Positions 6,496 to 29,856 of a stretch of 64,000 nucleotides of DNA are shown here, in pieces (positions within the stretch are counted from its first letter, which is position 1; each line of letters begins with the position of its first letter). Under the pieces are notes generated by a model. It did no database searches, was not told the origin of the DNA, and saw only the letters and a list, made by a program, of their open reading frames with translations. This DNA comes from an uncultured Gammaproteobacteria bacterium (GTDB lineage Bacteria > Pseudomonadota > Gammaproteobacteria > HK1): the NCBI GenBank assembly GCA_947258715.1, contig CAMYJH010000001.1:101959-165958 (forward strand), written 5' to 3'. The translations under genes were made by a program, and so were the position numbers.

Positions 6496-7883
6496 GTCAC
6501 CCGCTCCGGAACCGGTTTTGACGCGTTCAACCCGGGCCTGAATACCGGGAGGAGATAAAACACCAGGAAATAGCCGACGGGGAGAAGCGCGCTCACCGCC
6601 ATCAGGGCGCCTTGACTAGGGTCAAATCGTCTCCAGTCGCCAATCAGCATCAGCACCAGCAGGACGACGACCAATCTGCCATAGTACTTGGCGGACCTGT
6701 CCTTACTGTAGACCCAGAGCGTCAGGAACCACAGAAAATAGAGCTCGCCCAGGCGCAGCCCGAGCTCGGACATTCCAGGCGTCGGCGGCTGGGTGCCGAG
6801 ATAACCCAAAGTTACGAAGCCGACGGCAAACACGGCCAACGCTAGTCTGTACAAGGTGCTGCGGTAGCGAATGGATTTCACCGGGTGGCGATCAAGCCAC
6901 GGCAAAAAGAAGAAGATCAGCACCGCGACACCCATGGCGAGGACGCCGGTGAGCTTGTCGGGTATGGCCCGGAGGATCGCGTAGTAGGGAGTAAAATACC
7001 AAAGCGGAACGATGTGCTCCGGCGTCTTCAGGGGATCCGCAGGGGTGAAATTTGCCCTTTCGAGGAACCAGCCGAAGAAGTCCGGCGCGAAGAACATCAC
7101 CAGAGCAAACAGAAACAGGAATACCATCATGCCCGCGATGTCTTTCACGGTGTAGTAGGGATGAAAGGGAATTCCGTCCTGCGGGACGCCTTCGGCGTTC
7201 TTGTTCTTTTTGATCTCGATCCCATCCGGATTATTTGAGCCCACTTCGTGCAGCGCCATGATGTGCGCGGCAACCAGCCCCAGCAGCACCAGCGGCACCG
7301 CGACTATGTGGAACGAATAAAAGCGATTGAGGGTCGCGTCGGAGACCACATAATCACCGCGCATCCAAAGGGCCAGAGTCTCACCTACCCAGGGCACCGC
7401 GCCAAACAGCGAGACGATGACCTGCGCGCCCCAGAACGACATCTGGCCCCAAGGCAGCAGGTAGCCGAAGAAAGCTTCCGCCATAAGGGCCAAGAAAATC
7501 ATCATGCCGAGGATCCAGATGAGCTCGCGTGGGTGCTTATAGGAGCCGTACATAAGACCCCGGAACATGTGCAGGTAGACGATGACGAAGAAAAACGACG
7601 ACCCCGTCGAGTGCATGTAGCGGATGGTCCATCCCCAAGGCACTTCACGCATGATGTACTCCACCGAGGCGAATGCGTGTTCGGCCGAAGGCTTGTAGTG
7701 CATCGCGAGCCAGATGCCAGTGAGAATCTGCATCACCAATGCGAGTATCGCGAGGGATCCAAAAAAATACCAGAAGTTGAAATTTTTGGGCGCGTAGTAC
7801 TTCGCCAGGTGTTCGTTCCACATCTTGGTGAGCGGAAAGCGCGCGTCGGTCCATTCCAGCAGTCCAGTGAGCAGGGCTTTCAT
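6492..7883 (-). CDS. petB: Ubiquinol-cytochrome c reductase, cytochrome b subunit
   Basis: Integral membrane subunit holding haems bL and bH and both quinone sites. The 463-residue product has eight or more hydrophobic helices. Haem ligand histidines are seen in IRYMHSTGSSFFFVIVYLH and FHIVAVPLVLLGLVAAHIM. The Qo-site motif, PEWY in mitochondria, reads PLWY here (about bases 7003-7014, in IVPLWYFTPYY). The C-terminus carries extra hydrophobic segments beyond the eighth helix, as in many proteobacteria. Coupled to petA by a one-base overlap and to petC by four bases. Confidence 0.95.
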   Translation of the reverse strand: MKALLTGLLEWTDARFPLTKMWNEHLAKYYAPKNFNFWYFFGSLAILALVMQILTGIWLAMHYKPSAEHAFASVEYIMREVPWGWTIRYMHSTGSSFFFVIVYLHMFRGLMYGSYKHPRELIWILGMMIFLALMAEAFFGYLLPWGQMSFWGAQVIVSLFGAVPWVGETLALWMRGDYVVSDATLNRFYSFHIVAVPLVLLGLVAAHIMALHEVGSNNPDGIEIKKNKNAEGVPQDGIPFHPYYTVKDIAGMMVFLFLFALVMFFAPDFFGWFLERANFTPADPLKTPEHIVPLWYFTPYYAILRAIPDKLTGVLAMGVAVLIFFFLPWLDRHPVKSIRYRSTLYRLALAVFAVGFVTLGYLGTQPPTPGMSELGLRLGELYFLWFLTLWVYSKDRSAKYYGRLVVVLLVLMLIGDWRRFDPSQGALMAVSALLPVGYFLVFYLLPVFRPGLNASKPVPERVT

Positions 7884-8476
7884 CAGGCGGCGTCCTGATC
7901 CACGCCGATGATGATGCGGCTGTCGCTTAAGTACTTATAAGGTGGAACTTCGAGGTTGGTGGGCGCCGGCACACGGGCGTAGACCCTTCCGGCCATGTCG
8001 AAGCGGGAGCCGTGACAGGGACAGAAGAACCCGCCCTTCCACTGGGGGCCCAAGTCGTCGGGGGCAACGTCGGGACGATAAGTAGGCGCGCAGCCCAGGT
8101 GGGTGCAAATTCCCACCAAGATGAGGTATTCGGGCTTGATGGAGCGGTGCGGGTTCTGTGCGTAGGCCGGCTGTTGGGCCACCTCGGAGTCGGGATCCCG
8201 CAGCTTGTCTTCCACCGCCACCAGGGAGGCGAGCTGCTCTTCGGTCCTGCGTACGATCCACACCGGCTTGCCCCGCCACTTGACTGTGGTCATTTGCCCC
8301 GGCTCGAGCTTGCTGATGTCCTCTTCCACGGGCGCGCCGATGGCCTTGGCGCGTTCACTGGGCTGAAACGAGGCGACGAAAGGGACGGCCGCAAAGGCCA
8401 CGCCAACCGCTCCAACCACGGTGGTCGCGCCCGTGAGGAACCGGCGCCGCCCAATATCTACGCCATCACTGCTCAT
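7883..8476 (-). CDS. petA: Ubiquinol-cytochrome c reductase, Rieske iron-sulfur subunit
   Basis: Carries the 2Fe-2S cluster that oxidises ubiquinol at the Qo site. The 197-residue product begins with a twin-arginine-like signal/anchor (GRRRFLTG followed by a hydrophobic stretch to about residue 33) and has both cluster-binding motifs, CTHLGC and CPCHGS, with one Cys and one His each, plus the Pro loop (PAPTNLEVPP). First gene of the petABC operon. The 144 bases upstream separate it from hisC and should hold its promoter. Confidence 0.95.
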   Translation of the reverse strand: MSSDGVDIGRRRFLTGATTVVGAVGVAFAAVPFVASFQPSERAKAIGAPVEEDISKLEPGQMTTVKWRGKPVWIVRRTEEQLASLVAVEDKLRDPDSEVAQQPAYAQNPHRSIKPEYLILVGICTHLGCAPTYRPDVAPDDLGPQWKGGFFCPCHGSRFDMAGRVYARVPAPTNLEVPPYKYLSDSRIIIGVDQDAA

Positions 8477-8620
8477 GACTTGAGAAAACTCCTAGGCTGG
8501 GAATGCCGGATGAATTGTTATTTTCAATCGGCCCGGGAACCTAAAACGGCGCAAATGAAAGCACGCGCTAAGCGTTTTATCGTCCTATAAGCGCCGGGAG
8601 AGGTCAAGGCCACGAGGGTG

Positions 8621-9772
8621 TCAGCCTCGGCCGAACGCCTCAACGCCCTTATCCGCAAGGGTCTGCTCCAGCGCGGCGAGAAAAGCCGCGTTCTCATCGG
8701 CCGTGCCGACCGTCACTCTTAGGCAGTGCGCGAGCGCCGGCGCCGTGCCATCCAGGTTCTTGATCAGAACATTTCGCTGCTTGAGTCCCTCGAATATCGA
8801 GTCTGCGGCGACGCCAAATGACCGGAAGAGCAGGAAATTGGCACGGCTCGGCCATACCTTGAGTCCTTCGATTGCCGAGAGCGCAGCGAAAAGCGCCTCG
8901 CGCTGGCGGCAGATCTCATTGGCTTGTCGGCGGAACACGTCACGGTGTCGCAGCGCGAAAGCCGCCGAGCGCTGGGTAAGCACGTTGATGTTGTACGGCA
9001 AACGGAGCTTGTCCAACTGTTTCGTCCAGGCGCTTGCGCCCAACAGATAGCCCAGTCGGAGGCCGGCAAGACCCAGTTTGGAAAGCGTGCGCATCACCAG
9101 AACGTTGTCAAACTCGCGCCAGCGCCCGATCCAGGTATCACCAGCGAAGGGTGAATAGGCCTCGTCGATGACCACCAGACCGTGGGCCCCGCGCGTCACC
9201 GCCATGATCCCCTCAGGGTCGAAAAGGTTTCCGGTGGGATTATTGGGATAGGCAAGAAAAATCAGCGACGGCTGATGTTGTATCACCGCGGCGAGCACCG
9301 CGTCGGTGTCGAGAGCGAAGCTTTCGCGCTCTAGGGGCACCTCGACGAATTCCATCCCGGAGGCAATAGCGCAGCGCCGGTACATGACGAAGCTTGGGGC
9401 CACCGAAAGCACCGCGGCGCCGGGGCGGGCGAAGAGGGTGGAGAGCAGCTGAATGAGTTCGTCGGATCCATTACCGAGCACCAGCGGCTGATCTCGCTCC
9501 AGTCCTTCTGACCTCCGGATCTGAACTTTGAGCTCAGCGGCTTGAGGATCTGGATAGCGGTTGACCGGCGTGTCGCGCAACCACGCGAGCCACTCCGCGC
9601 GCATTTTCTCGGACCAGGAATGGGGATTCTCCATCGCGTCCAGCTTCACCATTCCACTGGCGTCTGCGACGCTGTAAGGCGCGAGATCCCGAACCTCGGG
9701 CCTCACCAGCTTCTCCACCCGCCGGGCCGCGCTCGCTCGCGCAGCGGGCGGGGTCTTGACCCGGTCACTCAC
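8621..9772 (-). CDS. hisC: Histidinol-phosphate aminotransferase
   Basis: PLP enzyme converting imidazole-acetol phosphate and glutamate to histidinol phosphate. The 383-residue product shows LDAMENPH near the N-terminus, [19 protein letters not shown], the VIDEAYSPF segment and the PLP-lysine motif [15 protein letters not shown] start it at the GTG at 9772 (VSDRVK), which overlaps the hisD stop by eight bases; the frame is open far upstream inside hisD but that part is antisense-like noise. Order murA-hisG-hisD-hisC is typical of gammaproteobacteria. Confidence 0.93.
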
Positions 9773-11078
9773 CGCGACTTCGAATCTCGGCGGATCGCGC
9801 GTGCGCGGTGAGCGTCTCGCCGCGTGCAAGATGCGCGGCCACGTCACCCAGCACGCGAGCGCCTTCGGGCGTGCAGTGGATGACGCTGGACCGCTTCTGA
9901 AAGTCGTAGACGCCCAGAGGCGAGCTGAATCTCGCCGTACCCCCTGTGGGCAGCACGTGATTGGGACCGGCGCAGTAGTCGCCCAGGGCCTCGGCGGTGA
10001 AGCGCCCCATGAAAATGGCGCCGGCGTTGCGCACCGCGGGCAGCAGCGCATCCGGATCGGCCACCGAAAGCTCCAGGTGCTCCGGCGCGATCCGGTTGGC
10101 CACGGCGATAGCCTGGTCAAGATTTTCGACCCGGATGAAGACACCCCGGCGCGTAAGCGAGCGGCGAATGATGTCGGCGCGCTCCATCGTCGGCAACAGG
10201 CGCATCACCGCATCGAACACCTGATCGAGATAGGCCCCGTCGGTGCAGACCAGAACGGCGCGGGCGTCCTCGTCGTGCTCCGCCTGAGAAAACAGATCCA
10301 AGGCGGTCCAGTCCGCAGGCGCGCTGCCATCGCTGACGATGAGAATCTCAGATGGTCCGGCGATCATGTCGATACCCACCTGTCCGAACACCAGCCGCTT
10401 GGCCGTAGCCACGTAAGCGTTTCCCGGGCCAACGATCTTATCCACGCGCTCGATGCTCTCGGTGCCGTAGGCGAGCGCCGCCACCGCCTGCGCGCCGCCC
10501 ACGGTGAGAACCTCGGTGACCCCGGCGACGTGCGCCGCCGCCAGCACCAGCTCGCTCAGTATCCCGCCCGGCGCCGGCACCGCTAGAACCACCTTGCCGA
10601 CACCGGCCACGCTGGCGGGGATGGCGTTCATCAGCACCGAGGAGGGATAGGCGGCTTTGCCGCCGGGCACGTAGAGCCCGACCCGTTCCAACGGCGTCAC
10701 TTGCTGGCCCAGGCGGGTGCCGTGCTCGTCGCTAAAGGACCACGACTCGAGTCGCTGCTTGGTGTGGTAGTCGCGAATTCGTTCGGCGGAAGTCTCGAGC
10801 GCACATCGCGTTTGTCCGTCGGTGGCGGCCCAGGCCTTTCTAATCCGCGATTCGGAGACGAACAGCGCACGCACGCTGGTAGCATCAAGTCGATCAAAAC
10901 GGCGGGTATAGTCCAGCACCGCCGCATCTCCTCGCTGGCGCACGTCGTCGATGATCTCACGCACCTTAGCTTCCACCTCGCCATCTGACTCAGGCGGCGA
11001 GGAAACGAGCGCATCGAGCCCGGAACCAAACCCTGGATCCGAAGCCTCCAGGCGGGCAATTGCGATCCGTTCTGTCAA
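9765..11078 (-). CDS. hisD: Histidinol dehydrogenase
   Basis: Zinc enzyme performing the last two steps of histidine synthesis, L-histidinol to histidine, with two NAD+. The 437-residue product contains [20 protein letters not shown], the VGPGNAYVA segment, the metal-site region [11 protein letters not shown] with the downstream SQAEHDEDA, and [17 protein letters not shown]. It follows hisG with a four-base gap and overlaps hisC. Confidence 0.96.
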
Positions 11079-23628: not shown

Positions 23629-24618
23629 TCAGTCCATTGCCAAAAGGACCTTGCCCTGTACGCGCCCGGCCTTGATCGCCTCGAGCGCCGCCTGAAAATC
23701 CTCTAGCTTATGCACGCCCATGATTTGGGGACAGATCTTTTTCTGCCGGTAAAGCGAGTACAGATCGTTCTGAACCCGGCGCACACTCTGGGGCTCGCGA
23801 CGCGGGTAATCGGCCCAGTGTAGACCAATGATGCTCAGATTTTTGAGCAGCAGGTAGTTGACCTTGACGCTGGGGATCTCACCGCAAGCGAAGCCGACCA
23901 CCACCATTCGGCCTTCCCAGGCGAGCGCTCTCAAACAAGCGTCGAAAACGCTCCCGCCGACGGTATCGATGACCACGTCCACGCCGTGCCCGTTTGTAAT
24001 CCGGTGCACCTGGTCTTTTAGCCCATGGTAAAGGTCCTCCCCCTCGAGCAGTACCACGTGGTCGGCGCCGGCCGCGCGCACGCTGGCTTCCTGCTCCGAA
24101 CGCCTCACTCCGGCGAAAGCCATTCCACCGTAAGCCTTCACTAGCTGGATGGCAGCAATGCCGACCCCCCCCGCAGCACCGGTAACCAGCACCCTTTCGC
24201 CAGCGCTGAGATGAATGCGTTCGCCCAGCGCGAAGTGGGCTGTCTGATAGACCAGCCCCAGCGCCGCAGCGTGCTCGAAGGAAATGTCTTCGGGGATCGG
24301 GTAGCAGCTCGCCTCCGGCGCCAGCACCTGCTGAGCGTAAGCGCCCTGTCCCACGAGAGCCGCGACCCGTTGGCCCTTTGAGATATTTTCCACTTCTTCG
24401 CCCACTGAGGCGACGACGCCCGAAACTTCCATTCCCGGGCAAAAAGGTAGCTCCGGTCTGACCTGATAGGCGCCGGTGATCATGAGCAGGTCCGGAAAGT
24501 TGACGCCCACGTTGCGAGCCTCGATCAGCACCTGCTTGGGTCCGGGCGTTGGCGCCTCGACTTCCTTGACCACGGCCTCTTCGAGCGGGCCGAAACGTTC
24601 GACAATCACGGCACGCAT
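23629..24618 (-). CDS. NADPH:quinone oxidoreductase-like, zinc-independent medium-chain dehydrogenase
   Basis: A 329-residue member of the QOR branch of the medium-chain dehydrogenase family. The catalytic domain has RNVGVNFPDLLMITGAY and GMEVSGVV but lacks the structural- and catalytic-zinc cysteines. The Rossmann domain has the variant VLVTGAAGGVGIAAIQLVKA. Such enzymes reduce quinones or acryloyl/crotonyl-type alkenes with NADPH; the substrate cannot be read off. Its first base overlaps the stop of the CoA transferase, so the two genes are one unit and probably act on the same acyl-CoA route. Confidence 0.88.
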   Translation of the reverse strand: MRAVIVERFGPLEEAVVKEVEAPTPGPKQVLIEARNVGVNFPDLLMITGAYQVRPELPFCPGMEVSGVVASVGEEVENISKGQRVAALVGQGAYAQQVLAPEASCYPIPEDISFEHAAALGLVYQTAHFALGERIHLSAGERVLVTGAAGGVGIAAIQLVKAYGGMAFAGVRRSEQEASVRAAGADHVVLLEGEDLYHGLKDQVHRITNGHGVDVVIDTVGGSVFDACLRALAWEGRMVVVGFACGEIPSVKVNYLLLKNLSIIGLHWADYPRREPQSVRRVQNDLYSLYRQKKICPQIMGVHKLEDFQAALEAIKAGRVQGKVLLAMD

Positions 24619-25745
24619 CAGCGCTCCTCCGTAAGTGGAGTCAAATACTCTTCGTTGGCTTCACCCAACGCCGGCGCGGACAGAATACCCGGCGCCGAGC
24701 GAAAGCACGGCGACAACGGCACCGCCGCGGCCGTGAGACCGGTATCTTCGTCGCCCGCGCGATGGGAGAACAGACCTCGAGCCACAAACTGCAGGTCGCG
24801 CATGGCCTCGCCGATGTCAGCCACGACGCAAACGCAGGCGTCGGCGTTCGCGAACACCTGCATCCATTCCGATGCCGTGCGCGAGGCGATAATGGCGGCC
24901 ACCGCCTTCTTGGTGGCTTCGGGATCGTCCCGATCCCGCCTCAGCGGCGCATCGAGATCGATGATTTCACAAAAGTTATCCCAGAAGCGCTGCTCCAACG
25001 GCGCCGCCGCCAGGTATCTTTGGTCGCTGGTGCGGTAAACCTGATAACGGGGTGAACCTCCCGTCAGCAGTTCGGCTCCCGGTTGAGGCACTCGTCCCGT
25101 CGCCTGATGCATTCCCTGGGCCCAGTACTGAAACGGGAACAAATGGTCGGTCATGGCGATGTCCAGAAAACAGCCGCCGCCGTCGAGCTCCCGCTGGCGC
25201 AGCGCCAGCAGCACGTTGATGATAACGGGGTAAGCTCCGCCGCCGATGTCAGCGATCAGTGCCGGCGGAATGACAGGATCGCCCTTGGCATCGGCGCCCG
25301 TTCGCAAAAGCCCCGTTTCAGCCAGATAGTTGAGATCATGGCCCGCGACGTTGGACTTGGGTCCCGACTGACCGTAGCCGGTGAGCGCGCAGTAAATCAG
25401 CTTTGGATTCGATTCCTTAAGCGCACCGTATCCGAGTCCGAGCCGATCCATGACCCCCGGTCGAAATTGCTCGATAAGCACGTCGGCTCGGGCGATCAGC
25501 GGCGCCAGCCGTTGCCTACCGCGGGGAGATTTAAGGTCCAGCTCGACGCTGCGCTTTCCGCGGTTGAGGAGCACGAACTCGACGCTGGTTTCGCCCCACG
25601 GGGTGCCAAACCCACGCATGGGCTCACCGCCAGGACGCTCCACCTTGATCACCTCGGCGCCGGCCTCGGCAAGCACGAGACTCGCCATGGGTCCGGGTAG
25701 CAGGGTAGAGAAATCGATGACCGTAACGCCTTTGAGCGGCTGCAT
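24618..25745 (-). CDS. CoA transferase family III (CaiB/BaiF)
   Basis: A 375-residue class III CoA transferase or alpha-methylacyl-CoA racemase homologue. Typical features: LKGVTVIDFSTLLPGPMASLVLAEAGAEVIKVERPGG at the N-terminus, NRGKRSVELDLKS, the LIEQFRPGVMDRLGLGY segment, and the YCALTGYGQSGP loop. The residues HDLNYLAETGLLR follow, with the conserved Asp expected to carry the acyl anhydride in transferases. The 375-residue length fits racemase or formyl-CoA-transferase-like members. Coupled to the downstream QOR-like gene. Confidence 0.88.
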   Translation of the reverse strand: MQPLKGVTVIDFSTLLPGPMASLVLAEAGAEVIKVERPGGEPMRGFGTPWGETSVEFVLLNRGKRSVELDLKSPRGRQRLAPLIARADVLIEQFRPGVMDRLGLGYGALKESNPKLIYCALTGYGQSGPKSNVAGHDLNYLAETGLLRTGADAKGDPVIPPALIADIGGGAYPVIINVLLALRQRELDGGGCFLDIAMTDHLFPFQYWAQGMHQATGRVPQPGAELLTGGSPRYQVYRTSDQRYLAAAPLEQRFWDNFCEIIDLDAPLRRDRDDPEATKKAVAAIIASRTASEWMQVFANADACVCVVADIGEAMRDLQFVARGLFSHRAGDEDTGLTAAAVPLSPCFRSAPGILSAPALGEANEEYLTPLTEER

Positions 25746-26431
25746 GTGTGATTCCTCTTCAGCCGGATAATTTGCCGATACTCTGCCGCCAACCGCCCAG
25801 GTAGGCCCGCCAAGGGCCTCATTTCAACAACCCGAGATGTTCGACTGGTATAGAGACGGGTCCATGGCCCCCTTGCGCGATAAGGCCCCCAGATTTTCGA
25901 GGGCAATCATAGCAAGGCCGCCGAACGGCGGCGCCCGCGGCCGGTTTGACCAGGCCACGGCAACGAGAAGAAGCCGCCGCGTCCTCAGCGGATGGGCGTC
26001 ACCGGAACGCGAGCGCGCGGGTCTGCGAAGTCAGCGCACCTTCCTTCTTCGCATCGACGCCAGCTCGGCGCGCCGCTCTCAGAGCATCTGATTGAGATAA
26101 AGGATCACTACCCTGGGGCTGGAGTCGTCGCACGGGGAGACTCGAGATATCCGTTCACCTAAGCGCTCGATTTCCCCATGGAGCGCATCCTTCGTCCAGC
26201 GTGGTTTGATAGGTGACCAAGGTGTTTCCCCCTTACTTGCATATTTCTTCCCGTTCAGTTGCTGCCCCAGGGATATGAGACCGCGTTTCGGACCCGGGGG
26301 GCCGAAGGTGTTAACAACGGAACCCAACAAACCGCCCCGGGATCGGGCTCAGCTACCGGGCCTTACGCGCATTGGTCATAATCGGGCCTTGCCCACGCGC
26401 GATGCCTTTTACGGACCCCAGGTTGAATTTG
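25746..26431. other. Intergenic region upstream of divergent CoA-transferase and kinase genes
   Basis: Nearly 690 bases between divergent genes. An 83-codon frame on the minus strand (26079-26330) has only a TTG start and ends ERLGERISRV...ILYLNQML; its second half reads like a helical protein, but I recognise no family and no ribosome site, so I do not call it as a gene. Promoters for both neighbours should lie here; I could not fix their boxes. Confidence 0.4.
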
Positions 26432-27472
26432 ATGACCCCGGTACGCCCCCAGCAGAACACGCGAGGCGATACTGAGTTACCCGCGGCGCTCCGCGACGCT
26501 TTGGCCCGAATGGGGCTTGTTGCTCCGGACGAGTCGGTGCGTGGAACCGCCCTGGAGGGCGGCGTGTCCTCGGACATCTGGCGGGTGGATCTGTGCTCGG
26601 GACCGGTTTGCGTCAAACGCGCCCTACCCAAGCTCAAAGTGGATGCGGAATGGCGCGCGCCGGTGGAGCGGAACAGGTATGAGGTGGCATGGCTGCGGGC
26701 GGCGGAGGCGATCGTTCCCGGCGCCGCACCGACGGTGCTCGGCGAAGACCCCGCGTCTTACGCGTTCGTCATGGCTTGCCTCGAGCCGGGTCTTTATCCG
26801 CTGTGGAAGACCCAGCTGCTCGGCGGCAAGGTCAGCGCCGATTTTGCCCGCCAGGTTGGTGACGTTGTTGGGCGTATCCATGCTGCCAGTGCCGATCGCG
26901 ACGACTTTGCCGCGGCGTTCCGCAGTGACGAAAATTTCTATGCCATTCGACTCGAACCGTATCTTATCGCCGCAGCGAGGAATCAGCCGGACGTAGGCGA
27001 TGTTCTCGAGGCATTGGCAAAAACGACTGCGAGCGTTCGCAGGGTGCTGGTGCACGGAGACGTCAGCCCGAAGAACATTCTTGCCGGACCTTGCGGTCCC
27101 GTTTTCCTGGATGCGGAATGCGCCTGGTTCGGAGACCCGGCTTTCGACCTGGCGTTTTGTCTCAACCACCTGCTGTTGAAGGGAATCGTCGTGCCTCTCG
27201 CCCGCGATGACTTGAAGCGCGCCTTTGAAGCGCTTCGCGCCGCCTATCTTTCCGTCGTCGACTGGGAGCCGGCAGACGAGCTGGAAGCGCGCACCGCGAG
27301 GCTGCTGCCAGGGCTTACCCTGGCCCGGGTCGACGGTAAGTCGCCGGTGGAATATCTGCAGTCAGAATCCGATCGGAGCCTGGTTCGCGCCGTCGCCAAG
27401 GCGCTGCTGGCCCGGCCGAAGGAAACGCTGACCCAAGTCAGCGAGTTTTGGTGGACGGCGCTGGCCTCGTGA
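26432..27472 (+). CDS. APH-family phosphotransferase (small-molecule kinase of unknown substrate)
   Basis: A 346-residue protein with the aminoglycoside-phosphotransferase/choline-kinase fold. It has an N-terminal nucleotide domain beginning about GGVSSDIWRVDL, the catalytic loop HGDVSPKN (His208, Asp210, Asn215) and the metal-binding segment DAECAWFGDPAFDLAF (Asp227). The family phosphorylates hydroxyls on antibiotics, choline, sugars or amino-acid derivatives; nothing here identifies an antibiotic as substrate. I use the ATG at 26432; an in-frame ATG at 26372 is also possible. The stop overlaps the GTG of the enolase-like gene (GTGA), so the two are translationally coupled and probably act in sequence. 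Confidence 0.85.
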   Translation: MTPVRPQQNTRGDTELPAALRDALARMGLVAPDESVRGTALEGGVSSDIWRVDLCSGPVCVKRALPKLKVDAEWRAPVERNRYEVAWLRAAEAIVPGAAPTVLGEDPASYAFVMACLEPGLYPLWKTQLLGGKVSADFARQVGDVVGRIHAASADRDDFAAAFRSDENFYAIRLEPYLIAAARNQPDVGDVLEALAKTTASVRRVLVHGDVSPKNILAGPCGPVFLDAECAWFGDPAFDLAFCLNHLLLKGIVVPLARDDLKRAFEALRAAYLSVVDWEPADELEARTARLLPGLTLARVDGKSPVEYLQSESDRSLVRAVAKALLARPKETLTQVSEFWWTALAS

Positions 27473-28764
27473 CCGCTGCTCGAATATCGGCGGTGCGCGG
27501 GCGTCGCGTCTGGGACTCCCGCGGTAATCCCACGGTGGAGGCCGAGATAAGGCTCGCAAGCGGTGTCACCGGCCGGGCCATCGCGCCGGCCGGTGCCTCC
27601 CGGGGCAGCCGCGAGGCCCACGAGCGCCGCGATGGCGGTATGCGGCTCCAGGGGCTCGACGTTAAGCACGCACTCGCCGGAATCCGTGACACAGTTGATC
27701 CCGCGCTCAAGGGTTTGGATGCGCGCGATCAAGAAGGCGTTGACGCTGCGCTGATTGAGGCTGACGGCACCGAGCTTCGGCATCGTCTCGGCACCAACGC
27801 GCTGGTGGCGGTTTCCATGGCGGTGGCCCACGCGGCCGCGGCGGCGGACGGAATGCCTCTTTGGCGCCACCTGCTGGGAGAAACCGAGGCCGTGTTGCCG
27901 CTGCCCGAAGTACAGATATTCGGCGGCGGCGCCCACGCCGGGCGCAGGATCGACATTCAGGATTTCATGGTCATGGCGCCGAAGGCGCAGCGCTTCGCCC
28001 AGGCGCTGGAATGGAGCGCCGAGGTTTATCACGCCGCCGGCAAGCTGCTGGACGCGCGCGGACTTCGCGCCGGCGTGGCCGACGAAGGCGGCTACTGGCC
28101 CGCCTTCAGAGAGAACTGCGAGGCGCTGGACGTGCTGATTCAGGCCATCGAGACTGCCGGCTTCACTCCCGGCGAAGAAATCGTGATCAGTTTGGACGTG
28201 GCCGCCTCGGAGCTGAGAAGAAACGGGCGCTACCGGCTAGAGCTGGAGGGTCGTGAGCTGGACTCCGACGCCCTGGCCGAGCTCATCGGCCGCTGGATCG
28301 AAACATATCCCATCGCCTCGGTGGAGGATCCCCTGGCGGAGGACGACGATGCCGGCTTAAAGCGCTTCACCGAAGCCTACGGCGAACAAGTGCAGATCGT
28401 CGGCGACGACTATCTGGTCACCGATGCCGCGCGCGTGAGCGCGGCGGCGGCCAGGGGCGTCTGCAACGCGGTGCTGCTCAAACCCAACCAGCGCGGCACG
28501 CTCACGGAAACCCGCGCGGCCTGGGAGACGGCAAAAGAAAATCGCTTCGGCGCCATCGTCTCGGCCCGTTCCGGCGAGACCGAGGACGTGAGCATCGTGC
28601 ACTTGGCACTGGGCTGGGGAGTGCCCCAGCTCAAAGTCGGCTCTTTCTCCCGTTCCGAGCGCATGGCCAAATGGAACGAGGGTATACGAATCGAGGAAAC
28701 GATTGGCGACGACGCGCGGTTCGCCGGTGCCAGGCCGCTTAGGGGGAAGTACGGGTCGGCATGA
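27469..28764 (+). CDS. Enolase-like protein with altered active site
   Basis: A 431-residue enolase homologue. Kept residues, by my alignment to yeast enolase: GAS loop, His156 (H159), Glu206 in ADEGG (E211), metal ligands Asp243, Glu286 and Asp313, and lysines Lys338 (K345) and Lys389 (K396). Changed: the canonical SHRSGET reads SARSGET, so His373 is Ala366; and the QEFM glutamate (E168) is Asp165. Canonical enolase converts 2-phosphoglycerate to PEP; the loss of the phosphate-contacting His suggests another phosphorylated acid or a much altered enzyme. The gene is not in the usual pyrG-eno context. Related enolase paralogues handle phosphonates (phosphonopyruvate-type hydratases), but that is only an analogy. 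The GTG start overlaps the kinase stop. Confidence 0.85.
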   Translation: MTAARISAVRGRRVWDSRGNPTVEAEIRLASGVTGRAIAPAGASRGSREAHERRDGGMRLQGLDVKHALAGIRDTVDPALKGLDARDQEGVDAALIEADGTELRHRLGTNALVAVSMAVAHAAAAADGMPLWRHLLGETEAVLPLPEVQIFGGGAHAGRRIDIQDFMVMAPKAQRFAQALEWSAEVYHAAGKLLDARGLRAGVADEGGYWPAFRENCEALDVLIQAIETAGFTPGEEIVISLDVAASELRRNGRYRLELEGRELDSDALAELIGRWIETYPIASVEDPLAEDDDAGLKRFTEAYGEQVQIVGDDYLVTDAARVSAAAARGVCNAVLLKPNQRGTLTETRAAWETAKENRFGAIVSARSGETEDVSIVHLALGWGVPQLKVGSFSRSERMAKWNEGIRIEETIGDDARFAGARPLRGKYGSA

Positions 28765-29013: not shown

Positions 29014-29856
29014 TCACGCCGCCAGGTTGTCAATTAGCCGCGCCTTTCCCAGCCACGCTGCGGCGAGAATGCGAAGTTCGTCGTCAATCGATGTTGGAAT
29101 GTTAAGGTCCTGCGCCCGGCGCACCTCGAAATAATCCGGCTTGAACCCCGCCGCTTCAAGGGCGTCGGTGGCGCGCTTGCACACGGCTTTGAAATCTCCC
29201 TCACCCGCACGCAGTTCTGCGCGCACTTTTTGCAGCTGCTTAAAGATCATCGGCGCCAGTTCGCGTTCCGCCGGCGTGAGGTAGTTGTTTCTCGAGCTCA
29301 TGGCCAGGCCGTCGCGCTCTCGCACCGTTTCTCCCACCAGGATTTCGATAGTCATATGAAGATCATCGACCATGCGGCGGATGACCAGAAGCTGCTGGTA
29401 ATCCTTTTCGCCGAAGACTGCCGCGTCCGGCCGAACCATGTTGAAGAGAATGTTCACTACCGTGGCCACGCCGCGGAAGAAACCTGGGCGTTGCTGGCCG
29501 CAGAGTATGGAACTCAGATCCGGCACCTCGATTTGTGTCGCATGCTCTGGTCCTCGCGGATAAACGTCTTTGATCTTCGGAACGAAAACAAGATCACAGC
29601 CCATGGCCTCGAGTCGCTGTAGATCCGTTTTCAGGGTCCGCGGATAGCTGTCGAAGTCCTCGTTCTCACCAAACTGGAAGGGGTTTACAAAAATGGTGGC
29701 GACGACGTAGTCGCCGTAATCGCGGGCCTTTCGCAGCAGGGACAGATGACCGTGGTGAAGATTTCCCATGGTGGGGACAAGCACGATACGGTCACCGGCC
29801 GCGCGCCTGCCGGTCAGCGCGCTGTTCATTTGCGCCAGCTCAGCGGCGGTTTCCAT
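29014..29856 (-). CDS. panC: Pantothenate synthetase
   Basis: Joins pantoate and beta-alanine with ATP hydrolysis to AMP. The 280-residue product has the nucleotide motif VPTMGNLHHGHLSLLRKA (HxGH type), FVNPFQFGENEDF, the VFGEKDYQQLLVIRRMVDDL segment and the late MSSRNNYL loop. Its first base overlaps the panB stop. No panD is present in the window. Confidence 0.96.
   Translation of the reverse strand: METAAELAQMNSALTGRRAAGDRIVLVPTMGNLHHGHLSLLRKARDYGDYVVATIFVNPFQFGENEDFDSYPRTLKTDLQRLEAMGCDLVFVPKIKDVYPRGPEHATQIEVPDLSSILCGQQRPGFFRGVATVVNILFNMVRPDAAVFGEKDYQQLLVIRRMVDDLHMTIEILVGETVRERDGLAMSSRNNYLTPAERELAPMIFKQLQKVRAELRAGEGDFKAVCKRATDALEAAGFKPDYFEVRRAQDLNIPTSIDDELRILAAAWLGKARLIDNLAA

Follow-up and report, generated by a model that had tools for sequence, protein, structure and literature searches.

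A second enolase with an altered substrate pocket is genetically linked to an APH-fold kinase in many Pseudomonadota

Closest described systems

Enolases are generally regarded as catalyzing a single reaction. The protein considered here, a second enolase copy that we call ENO2, resembles the known members (TIGR01060; e.g., those of E. coli, 6bfy, and C. aurantiacus, 4z1y) in fold (query TM 0.95 to 6bfy_A), Mg ligands, the Lys338 base, the Glu206 acid, His156, the Arg367/Ser368 phosphate contacts, and Lys389. It differs from them in having Asp165 for Glu, Ala366 for His, Trp210, and other fixed changes (92/92 ENO2 sequences) and in being, as a second copy in its genome, genetically tied to an APH-fold kinase. 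In a report on the C. aurantiacus enzyme, Glu165 and Glu206 are described as contacting 2-PGA and the Lys338 position as that of the base (PMC4450660).

The pair can also be compared with known routes that join a kinase to an enolase. The serine cycle contains a hydroxypyruvate reductase, glycerate 2-kinase, and enolase segment, and the module proposed below would be like this C3 segment but with another kinase fold and a second enolase. It likewise shares with the glycerate 2-kinases of class I (GarK) and class II (MOFRL), acting with enolase, the proposed order of 2-oxo acid to glycerate to 2-phosphoglycerate to phosphoenolpyruvate (PEP). The differences are that the kinase belongs to an unrelated family, that the enolase is dedicated and altered, and that the substrate may be other than glycerate. 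A glycerate 2-kinase plus enolase route to PEP has been described (PMC2063504).

Some clusters containing the pair, of the types found in Paracoccus, in Roseibium, and at locus L130, carry an FAH hydrolase and SDRs and thereby resemble the nonphosphorylating route II for L-rhamnose and L-fucose. The L-fucose route is reported to end in pyruvate and L-lactate, without mention of a kinase or enolase step (PMC13406643). Among kinases, 5-methylthioribose kinase (TIGR01767; 2olc, 2pyw) offers the nearest solved fold and has the same HGD...N catalytic motif. This motif is generally present in the superfamily, and the kinase studied here is only ~15% identical to 5-methylthioribose kinase, lies far below the TIGR01767 cutoff, and is tied to an enolase. 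None of the open papers listed in our literature searches describes this pair.

Results and Discussion

A two-gene locus with a start-stop overlap

The window, a stretch of 64,000 nucleotides from an uncultured gammaproteobacterium (contig CAMYJH010000001.1), contains the kinase and ENO2 genes in direct succession on the forward strand (Table 1). For the kinase we favor the ATG start, since several close homologues among the protein-database matches listed are also 346 aa long; the longest open reading frame begins at a TTG at 26372. A reading of this DNA from the sequence alone (the sequence-only reading) had described an overlap of the kinase stop with an enolase-like GTG and had placed the cassette between a divergent CoA-transferase operon and panC. 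Both descriptions proved correct, with the panC assignment presumed from motifs. The cassette had also been described as standing alone; this is true of the window but not of every genome, as some place the pair inside sugar-acid or ring-cleavage clusters. Dehydrogenase and FAH genes are absent beside the cassette, and the best matches to both in this genome are on other contigs. No Rfam match was found at gathering cutoffs between 25700 and 29000, where RNA regulation was looked for.

Table 1. Features of the kinase-ENO2 locus and its flanks (window coordinates)
Feature	Position	Strand	Remarks
Divergent quinone-oxidoreductase-like/CoA-transferase III pair	23629-25745	-	Neighbor of the cassette
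APH-fold kinase gene	26432..27472	+	346 aa; catalytic motif HGDVSPKN, metal motif DAE; PF01636
GTGA overlap of the ENO2 start with the kinase stop	27469..27472	+	Read from the sequence
ENO2 (enolase paralogue) gene	27469..28764	+	431 aa, GTG start; Enolase_N and Enolase_C; TIGR01060
Asp165 codon of ENO2	27961..27963	+	Glu in 26/26 canonical enolases
Trp210 codon of ENO2	28096..28098	+	Four residues past general-acid Glu206; Ala in 26/26 canonical enolases
Lys338 codon of ENO2	28480..28482	+	Catalytic-base position of enolases; kept in 92/92
Ala366 codon of ENO2	28564..28566	+	His in 26/26 canonical enolases
Neighbor gene	29014-29856	-	Candidate panC

The kinase belongs to the APH superfamily and to neither class I nor class II glycerate kinases

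The kinase matches PF01636 (APH) with 61.1 bits against a cutoff of 23.2, and this is its only match at an E value of ≤0.001; neither PF02595 (class I glycerate kinase) nor PF13660 (which we take to be the class II type) was matched. Its best NCBIfam match, TIGR01767, scores 49.7 bits, under the equivalog cutoff of 275, so that the protein falls outside that family even though the nearest solved folds to its AF2 model (pLDDT 92.4) are methylthioribose kinases. Among the 89 kinase homologues of the neighborhood set, the motif HGDxxxxN is present in 84 (contig ends truncate two matches) and the acidic metal motif DAE in 81. Source names among the matches listed (aminoglycoside phosphotransferase, fructosamine-3-kinase, and 5-methylthioribose kinase) are uninformative, as is the name enolase given to ENO2; in these searches, the 8,000 nearest candidates were scored and 120 were listed.

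ENO2 forms a distinct clade with a changed pocket

By score, ENO2 is an enolase, with 459.7 bits against a cutoff of 300 for TIGR01060 and 288.1 against 21.5 for PF00113, and its AF2 model (pLDDT 86.6) matches the E. coli enolase chains 6d3q_C and 6bfy_A with query TM values of 0.94 to 0.95. ENO2 sequences nevertheless form a clade distinct from canonical enolases, with all ENO2 sequences on one side of a branch and the 26 canonical enolases on the other. ENO2 is also not the only enolase of its organism: a canonical enolase, for which the sequence-only reading had advised a search, is encoded elsewhere in the genome (G000:C22:29259-30485) and is 46% identical to ENO2. Exactly two enolases were found in each of the 13 ENO2 genomes examined, one canonical (403 to 449 bits) and one ENO2 (248 to 314 bits).

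In the alignment, D243, E286, D313, K338, E206, H156, R367, S368, and K389 are kept in 92/92 ENO2 sequences, whereas seven other positions are fixed to different letters: D165, A366, W210, Q149, G152, A204, and V390 in 92/92 ENO2 sequences compared with E, H, A, N, N, G, and T, respectively, in 26/26 canonical enolases. Ten further ENO2 sequences from outside the discovery set (54 to 62% identical) agree in every one of these altered letters, including Asp in place of the substrate-contact Glu at 165 and Ala in place of the invariant His at 366, and all 10 also keep the metal ligands, base Lys, acid Glu, loop-2 His, and Arg/Ser phosphate contacts. Judged from these residues, ENO2 retains the metal, base, acid, and phosphate positions of enolase but has an altered substrate pocket. 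Positions 366 and 165 presumably correspond to His373 and Glu168 of the yeast enzyme, and mutagenesis of His373 was reportedly the subject of a 1997 study. An additional anionic group on the substrate, considered because of Arg159/Arg160 in loop 2, was dropped as an idea when Arg at 160 was found in 2/26 canonical enolases; human enolase carries Lys there.

Kinase and ENO2 are linked far above chance

Among 398 genomes sampled from across the Pseudomonadota, ENO2 (E ≤ 1e-125) and the kinase (E ≤ 1e-50) were found in the identical nine genomes, our own included. The two genes are within about 60 nt of each other in seven of the nine; in the other two, the distance is 4.6 and 7.8 kb. A kinase homologue accompanied ENO2 in 77/80 genome-contig loci (the 80 best of the 574 detected), and in the three loci without one, no more than 60 nt separate ENO2 from a contig end. 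A strand-aware count over 92 ENO2 loci places the kinase immediately upstream and codirectional in 73; in 16 it is farther off or on the opposite strand, no more than 7 kb away, and in 3, at contig edges, it is absent. The total depends slightly on method (89/92 by tblastn with no coverage filter versus 87/94 when half of the query was required and overlapping seeds were dropped). These and all neighbor counts rest on tblastn because open reading frame calls picked shadow frames in GC-rich loci.

A 4-nt start-stop overlap is present in 57 of the 69 loci tested as adjacent, own included (50 ATGA, 6 GTGA, and 1 TTGA), and the two proteins codiverge (r = 0.90 over 83 pairs, compared with at most 0.22 in 1,000 permutations). 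The arrangement is thus far above chance, and chance adjacency is excluded by the shared nine-genome occurrence and the linkage. Rare adjacency in other genomes and a sole enolase in this organism had been named beforehand as grounds for abandoning a dedicated pair; instead, the linkage is consistent, at 89/92 loci and in the same 9/398 genomes, and the canonical enolase is present as well.

Neighboring genes vary among loci

Beyond the pair itself, the neighborhoods are heterogeneous. A frequent companion is a D-2-hydroxyacid dehydrogenase, found in 47/94 loci and in all 47 within 500 nt of the kinase or ENO2, with none farther away in the stored stretches; the count is 50 when overlapping seeds are kept. 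At locus L026, the kinase (6994-8004), ENO2 (8001-9290), and dehydrogenase (9287-10225) genes overlap in one run. Half of the 50 dehydrogenase-bearing loci are from Acetobacteraceae or Roseomonadaceae and 15 more are without a family name, and these loci are not independent of one another. The dehydrogenase was not detected by tblastn in the other 47/94 loci, for which contig ends are only part of the explanation (74/94 loci have 3 kb on both sides); contig ends are likewise a partial cause where FAH (73/94) and PEP carboxylase (91/94) were not detected. An ApbA-type reductase is present in 3/94 loci. PEP carboxylase is also present in three, all Rhizobium plasmids, placed after the kinase and dehydrogenase.

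The FAH proteins are nearest to 2,4-didehydro-3-deoxy-L-rhamnonate hydrolase (352 bits, below the cutoff of 500; structure match 8gsr). At L130, FAH is joined by a galactonate-dehydratase-like enzyme, SDRs, ENO2, and the kinase, and a conventional sugar-acid dehydratase is also present at L017. Burkholderiales and rhizobial clusters contain an extradiol dioxygenase resembling HpaD (272.5 bits, short of the cutoff of 321.4), and a route through it does not obviously end in glycerate. Sugar transporters, LacI regulators, an SMP-30/gluconolactonase-like protein, and SDRs occur near the pair in some loci. A sulfatase-like gene lies ~5 kb from the pair at L085. One further neighbor family (F2), without a Pfam match, was set aside as probably a wrong frame.

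A proposed kinase-enolase module and its alternatives

We propose, with a probability of roughly one-half, that the two proteins form a module in which the kinase phosphorylates and ENO2 dehydrates a glycerate-like 2,3-dihydroxy acid, the substrate probably being altered at C3. The acid would likely come from one of two sources: reduction of a 3-hydroxy-2-oxo acid by the D-2-hydroxyacid dehydrogenase (or, in three loci, the ApbA-type reductase), or release from a 2,4-diketo sugar acid by an FAH-type hydrolase. The kinase would then phosphorylate the C2 hydroxyl to give a 2-phospho-acid, from which ENO2 would remove water across C2-C3, yielding PEP or a close enol-phosphate analogue. Phosphorylation of a hydroxy acid followed by elimination had been suggested in the sequence-only reading and finds partial support here: the order of steps fits the dehydrogenase in 47/94 loci and the retained ENO2 residues, while substrate, activity, direction, and product are matters that we infer.

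The simplest alternative is a plain D-glycerate route, in which the kinase would be a nonorthologous D-glycerate 2-kinase and ENO2 an ordinary 2-phospho-D-glycerate enolase producing PEP. The dehydrogenase, FAH, and PEP carboxylase neighbors can be read in terms of glycerate and PEP, and PF02595 was not found in 13/13 ENO2 genomes or PF13660 in 5/13. However, PF13660 is present in the other 8/13 (own included) and a canonical enolase in all 13, which would make the kinase-ENO2 pair redundant in many cases, and the fixed D165/A366 pair favors another substrate; we consider this route unlikely, though deserving of some weight. Still less probable is a module for the L-enantiomer, in which L-sugar acids would feed an L-glycerate 2-kinase and then a 2-phospho-L-glycerate dehydratase. 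It would account for the insufficiency of the canonical kinase and enolase, and FAH cleavage of L-hexonates would yield L-glycerate, as might be expected of proteins nearest the L-rhamnonate-route hydrolase, but the dehydrogenase found next to the two genes is a member of the D-isomer-specific family, whose members normally make (R)-acids, and the L130 dehydratase is nearest galactonate dehydratase, whose D-substrate would yield D-glycerate.

We are equally doubtful that whole sugar acids are the substrates, with the kinase acting on O2 of an aldonate and ENO2 dehydrating the product to a 2-keto-3-deoxy acid in its enol phosphate form. The sugar-related neighbors noted above would fit, the His-to-Ala and Glu-to-Asp changes could open space at C3, and the gene table for the Paracoccus and Roseibium plasmids, which is incomplete, shows no other sugar-acid dehydratase within ~9 kb. 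Conventional sugar-acid dehydratases are nevertheless present at L130 and L017, and the enol phosphate would require a phosphatase or phosphotransferase, neither of which stood out among the neighbors that carry annotation. Very improbable, finally, is a methylthioribose-kinase-type sugar kinase whose linkage to ENO2 reflects coregulation and not consecutive steps: the nearest solved folds, the best NCBIfam match, and the names of some homologues among the matches listed point that way, but the score is far from the family cutoff, and the 9/9 co-occurrence, conserved start-stop overlap, and codivergence fit consecutive steps better.

Returning to the proposed module, its substrate would probably not be 2-phospho-D-glycerate itself but a related compound changed at C3. 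A different substrate is probable because the Glu-to-Asp and His-to-Ala pocket changes are fixed and a canonical enolase is retained, and with a C3-altered substrate a PEP carboxylase partner is less to be expected. We tentatively suggest that ENO2 is a two-metal, phospho-substrate enolase with a nonglycolytic substrate, acting with the APH-fold kinase on a C3-modified glycerate whose side chain is larger or whose leaving group is not hydroxide. To our knowledge, it would be the first such enolase. Sulfolactate, with sulfite as the leaving group, is a speculative candidate, the sulfatase-like gene at L085 being the sole hint.

Implications for annotation

If the proposal is correct, the ENO2 clade, with its rebuilt pocket and its own kinase, would add a reaction to a highly conserved enzyme and assign a function to a kinase family whose present name refers to aminoglycosides. 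D165, A366, and W210 would offer a handle on how enolase specificity is set. The pair also draws attention to clusters in Rhizobium, Variovorax, Paraburkholderia, Paracoccus, and Roseibium that appear to serve sugar-acid use or ring cleavage and are uncharacterized, and a new catabolic strategy would be hidden under the label "eno." Since ENO2 passes the curated NCBI model, annotation counts it as glycolysis. Of seven plasmid matches with annotation that we inspected, five have ENO2 named "eno: phosphopyruvate hydratase" or do not list it.

Genomic context of the kinase-ENO2 cassette

The sequence-only reading had described an overlapping pair made of an APH-fold kinase gene and a gene for an enolase paralogue (ENO2), and this arrangement was confirmed in the sequence, with GTGA common to the kinase 3' end and the ENO2 start. 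ENO2 additionally has a weak Pfam match to the related domain MR_MLE_C, and the minus-strand gene downstream of it is, judging by its motifs, presumably panC. Interpretation of the pair as a dedicated two-step system supposed a canonical eno elsewhere in the genome, and the assembly (4.9 Mb, 110 contigs, completeness of 94.7%) contains one further enolase, of this type, on contig C22, with 46% identity to ENO2. None of the partner genes described below for other loci adjoins the window's own cassette. CoA-transferase III homologues occur at 5 of 94 ENO2 loci searched by tblastn, the window among them.

Genes of the cassette and its upstream neighbor in the window
Feature	Position	Strand	Annotation
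APH-fold kinase gene	26432-27472	+	APH phosphotransferase family as sole Pfam match
ENO2	27469-28764	+	Both enolase domains (Pfam) and the curated "eno" model
CoA-transferase III gene and quinone-oxidoreductase-like gene	23629-25745	-	Upstream of the cassette, divergent

Linkage of the kinase and ENO2 across genomes

In a sample of 398 genomes drawn evenly from the phylum, including the window's own, separate searches (E values of ≤1e-125 for ENO2 and ≤1e-50 for the kinase) recovered ENO2 in 9 genomes and the kinase in the identical 9 and nowhere else. In seven of these genomes, no more than about 60 nt separates the two genes, bearing out the expected recurrence of the pair; in the other two, the distances are 4.6 and 7.8 kb. 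Among 55 nearer genomes (own included), ENO2 was present at ≥58% identity in 5, all of which also have a canonical enolase; canonical-type matches alone were found in 48, and no match was found in 2. Of 574 genome_contigs loci, the best 80 were taken, and a kinase homologue was present at 77 of them; this set, being the nearest loci, leans toward close relatives, whereas the 398-genome sample is free of that bias but has only nine positives; at the three kinase-less loci, ENO2 starts ≤60 nt from a contig end.

At 73 of 92 ENO2 loci, a strand-aware recount found the kinase immediately upstream and in the same orientation; it lay upstream at 0.4 to 6.6 kb at 8, 4.7 kb downstream at 4 (Variovorax), and on the opposite strand, 4.4 to 5.7 kb away, at 4; it was not found at 3, all at contig edges. 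The 4-nt start-stop overlap was seen in 57 of the 69 loci tested as adjacent. Pairwise divergences of the kinase and ENO2 were strongly correlated (r = 0.90 over 83 loci; best of 1,000 permutations, 0.22), which reflects the shared descent of the two genes and is no independent proof of function.

ENO2 is a separate enolase group with an altered pocket

A midpoint-rooted tree of 118 sequences, built by a quick method without bootstrapping, has a branch with SH-aLRT support of 100 that separates 92 ENO2 proteins from 26 canonical enolases. The two groups had been set beforehand from their percent identities with the window's own ENO2 (≥55% versus <50%, with none between). All 13 ENO2 genomes checked with PF00113 encode exactly two enolases, the canonical one scoring 403 to 449 bits and ENO2 248 to 314 bits. 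The canonical enolase of a genome of the same class (L110, G031:C49:165945-167228) has a single in-frame TAG. In those of two other genomes (G001:C36:46006-47310 and G003:C76:15899-17320), the match is interrupted near residue 140 for about 80 to 170 nt with no stop, which suggests a small insertion there.

The Mg ligands D243, E286, and D313, the base K338, the acid E206, and His156 of the loop, as well as R367, S368, and K389, are kept in all 92 ENO2 proteins. In contrast, D165, A366, and W210 are found in 92/92 ENO2 proteins, where 26/26 canonical enolases have Glu, His, and Ala, respectively; likewise, Q149 and G152 (92/92) stand against canonical Asn and Asn, and A204 and V390 (92/92) against Gly and Thr. 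A366 stands at the position of His373 of yeast enolase, a residue that matters in catalysis. Ten further ENO2 proteins (L119 to L128; 54 to 62% identical), which were not used in finding the changed positions, all carry the same letters there. Superposition of the AF2 model of ENO2 (pLDDT, 86.6) and E. coli enolase gives a query TM score of 0.94 to 0.95.

By alignment to 4z17/4z1y, ENO2 numbering equals that of the C. aurantiacus enolase, in which 2-phosphoglycerate (2-PGA) is held by Glu165, Glu206, Lys338, Arg367, and Ser368 according to PMC4450660; all ENO2 proteins have one of these five residues altered. For the enolase of M. tuberculosis, PMC10619443 reports that Glu163, taken to be the counterpart of Glu165, contacts the substrate carboxylate and, together with Glu204, acts via water on the terminal carbon of phosphoenolpyruvate (PEP).

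The closest solved folds of the kinase are 5-methylthioribose kinases (about 15% identity), yet it scores far under the cutoff of that family (49.7 versus 275 bits). The catalytic HGDxxxxN motif is present in 84 of 89 kinase homologues.

Enolase chemistry and APH kinases are already known. Full-text searches of open PMC papers listed no description of an enolase paired with an APH kinase. As far as that literature was searched, neither the dedicated pair nor the altered enolase is described.

Neighboring genes and the proposed pathway

A frequent third partner is a D-2-hydroxyacid dehydrogenase, found by tblastn at 47 of 94 ENO2 loci and always ≤500 nt from the kinase or ENO2. Neighbor counts are limited by contig ends, with 3 kb present on both sides at 74 of the 94. 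Without removal of overlapping seeds, there were 50 hits at 50 loci, none beyond 500 nt; 25 of these loci belong to Acetobacteraceae or Roseomonadaceae, 8 belong to Burkholderiaceae or Comamonadaceae, and 15 have no family name. In one Roseomonas locus (L026), the kinase, ENO2, and dehydrogenase form a single overlapping run. An ApbA-type reductase lies ≤500 nt away at 3/94 loci (a looser search gave more matches in L017, L055, and L129), and FAH-type hydrolases occur at 21/94 (≤500 nt in 4). At other loci, GMC oxidoreductases (9/94), TctC (13/94), or unrelated-looking genes adjoin the pair (all counts by tblastn).

Acting in the order dehydrogenase, kinase, and ENO2, the module would convert a 2-oxo acid to a 2-hydroxy acid, a 2-phospho acid, and finally an enol phosphate. 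The serine cycle includes a segment from hydroxypyruvate to PEP, and the proposed steps would equal this segment if hydroxypyruvate is the starting compound. On Rhizobium plasmids, PEP carboxylase is encoded after the kinase and dehydrogenase and would close the segment in rhizobia. Plasmids of Paracoccus and Roseibium have, after the pair, genes for an FAH protein near diketo-deoxyrhamnonate hydrolase, for SDRs, and for a sugar ABC transporter; the L130 cluster has an additional galactonate-dehydratase-like protein (276 bits versus a cutoff of 311). Such FAH clusters may lead to the same entry point through hydrolysis of 2,4-diketo-3-deoxyhexonate, with release of pyruvate and glycerate that we infer by analogy with route II chemistry, for which the fucose case (PMC13406643) is the basis.

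Plain D-glycerate is the main alternative as the natural substrate of the module. Class I glycerate kinase was not found in any of the 13 ENO2 genomes and neither glycerate kinase class was found in 5 of them, which leaves room for such a role, but PF13660, the class II type, is already present alongside ENO2 in 8 of the 13, the window's genome included, and the ENO2 pocket changes are fixed. Because of this coexistence and the fixed changes, we favor a C3-altered glycerate over plain D-glycerate.

Several loci carry other genes beside the pair. In an Acetobacterales locus (L024:1268-3774), genes for a DgaE/SelA-like PLP protein and a D-serine-dehydratase-like-domain protein, which may supply the module with hydroxy-amino acids, are divergent from kinase-ENO2-dehydrogenase, and similar genes occur at a few other loci. 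A PEP-mutase/isocitrate-lyase-superfamily gene lies directly upstream of the kinase and beside a TRAP transporter gene at L011:3866-4732, scoring 250 bits to methylisocitrate lyase, below the cutoff of 354. One relative of the same family encodes, next to ENO2, a protein that has ankyrin repeats in 14 stretches (L138:6298-7986). On Rhizobium plasmids (L083, L089, and L120), ENO2 sits in a conserved cluster with an HpaD-like extradiol dioxygenase (score below the cutoff), a cupin, a carboxymuconolactone-decarboxylase-family protein, an NAD(P)H-dependent (FMN-reductase-like) oxidoreductase, an alcohol dehydrogenase, an FAH protein, and a branched-chain-type ABC transporter, and similar sets are present in Paraburkholderia, Cupriavidus, and Variovorax.
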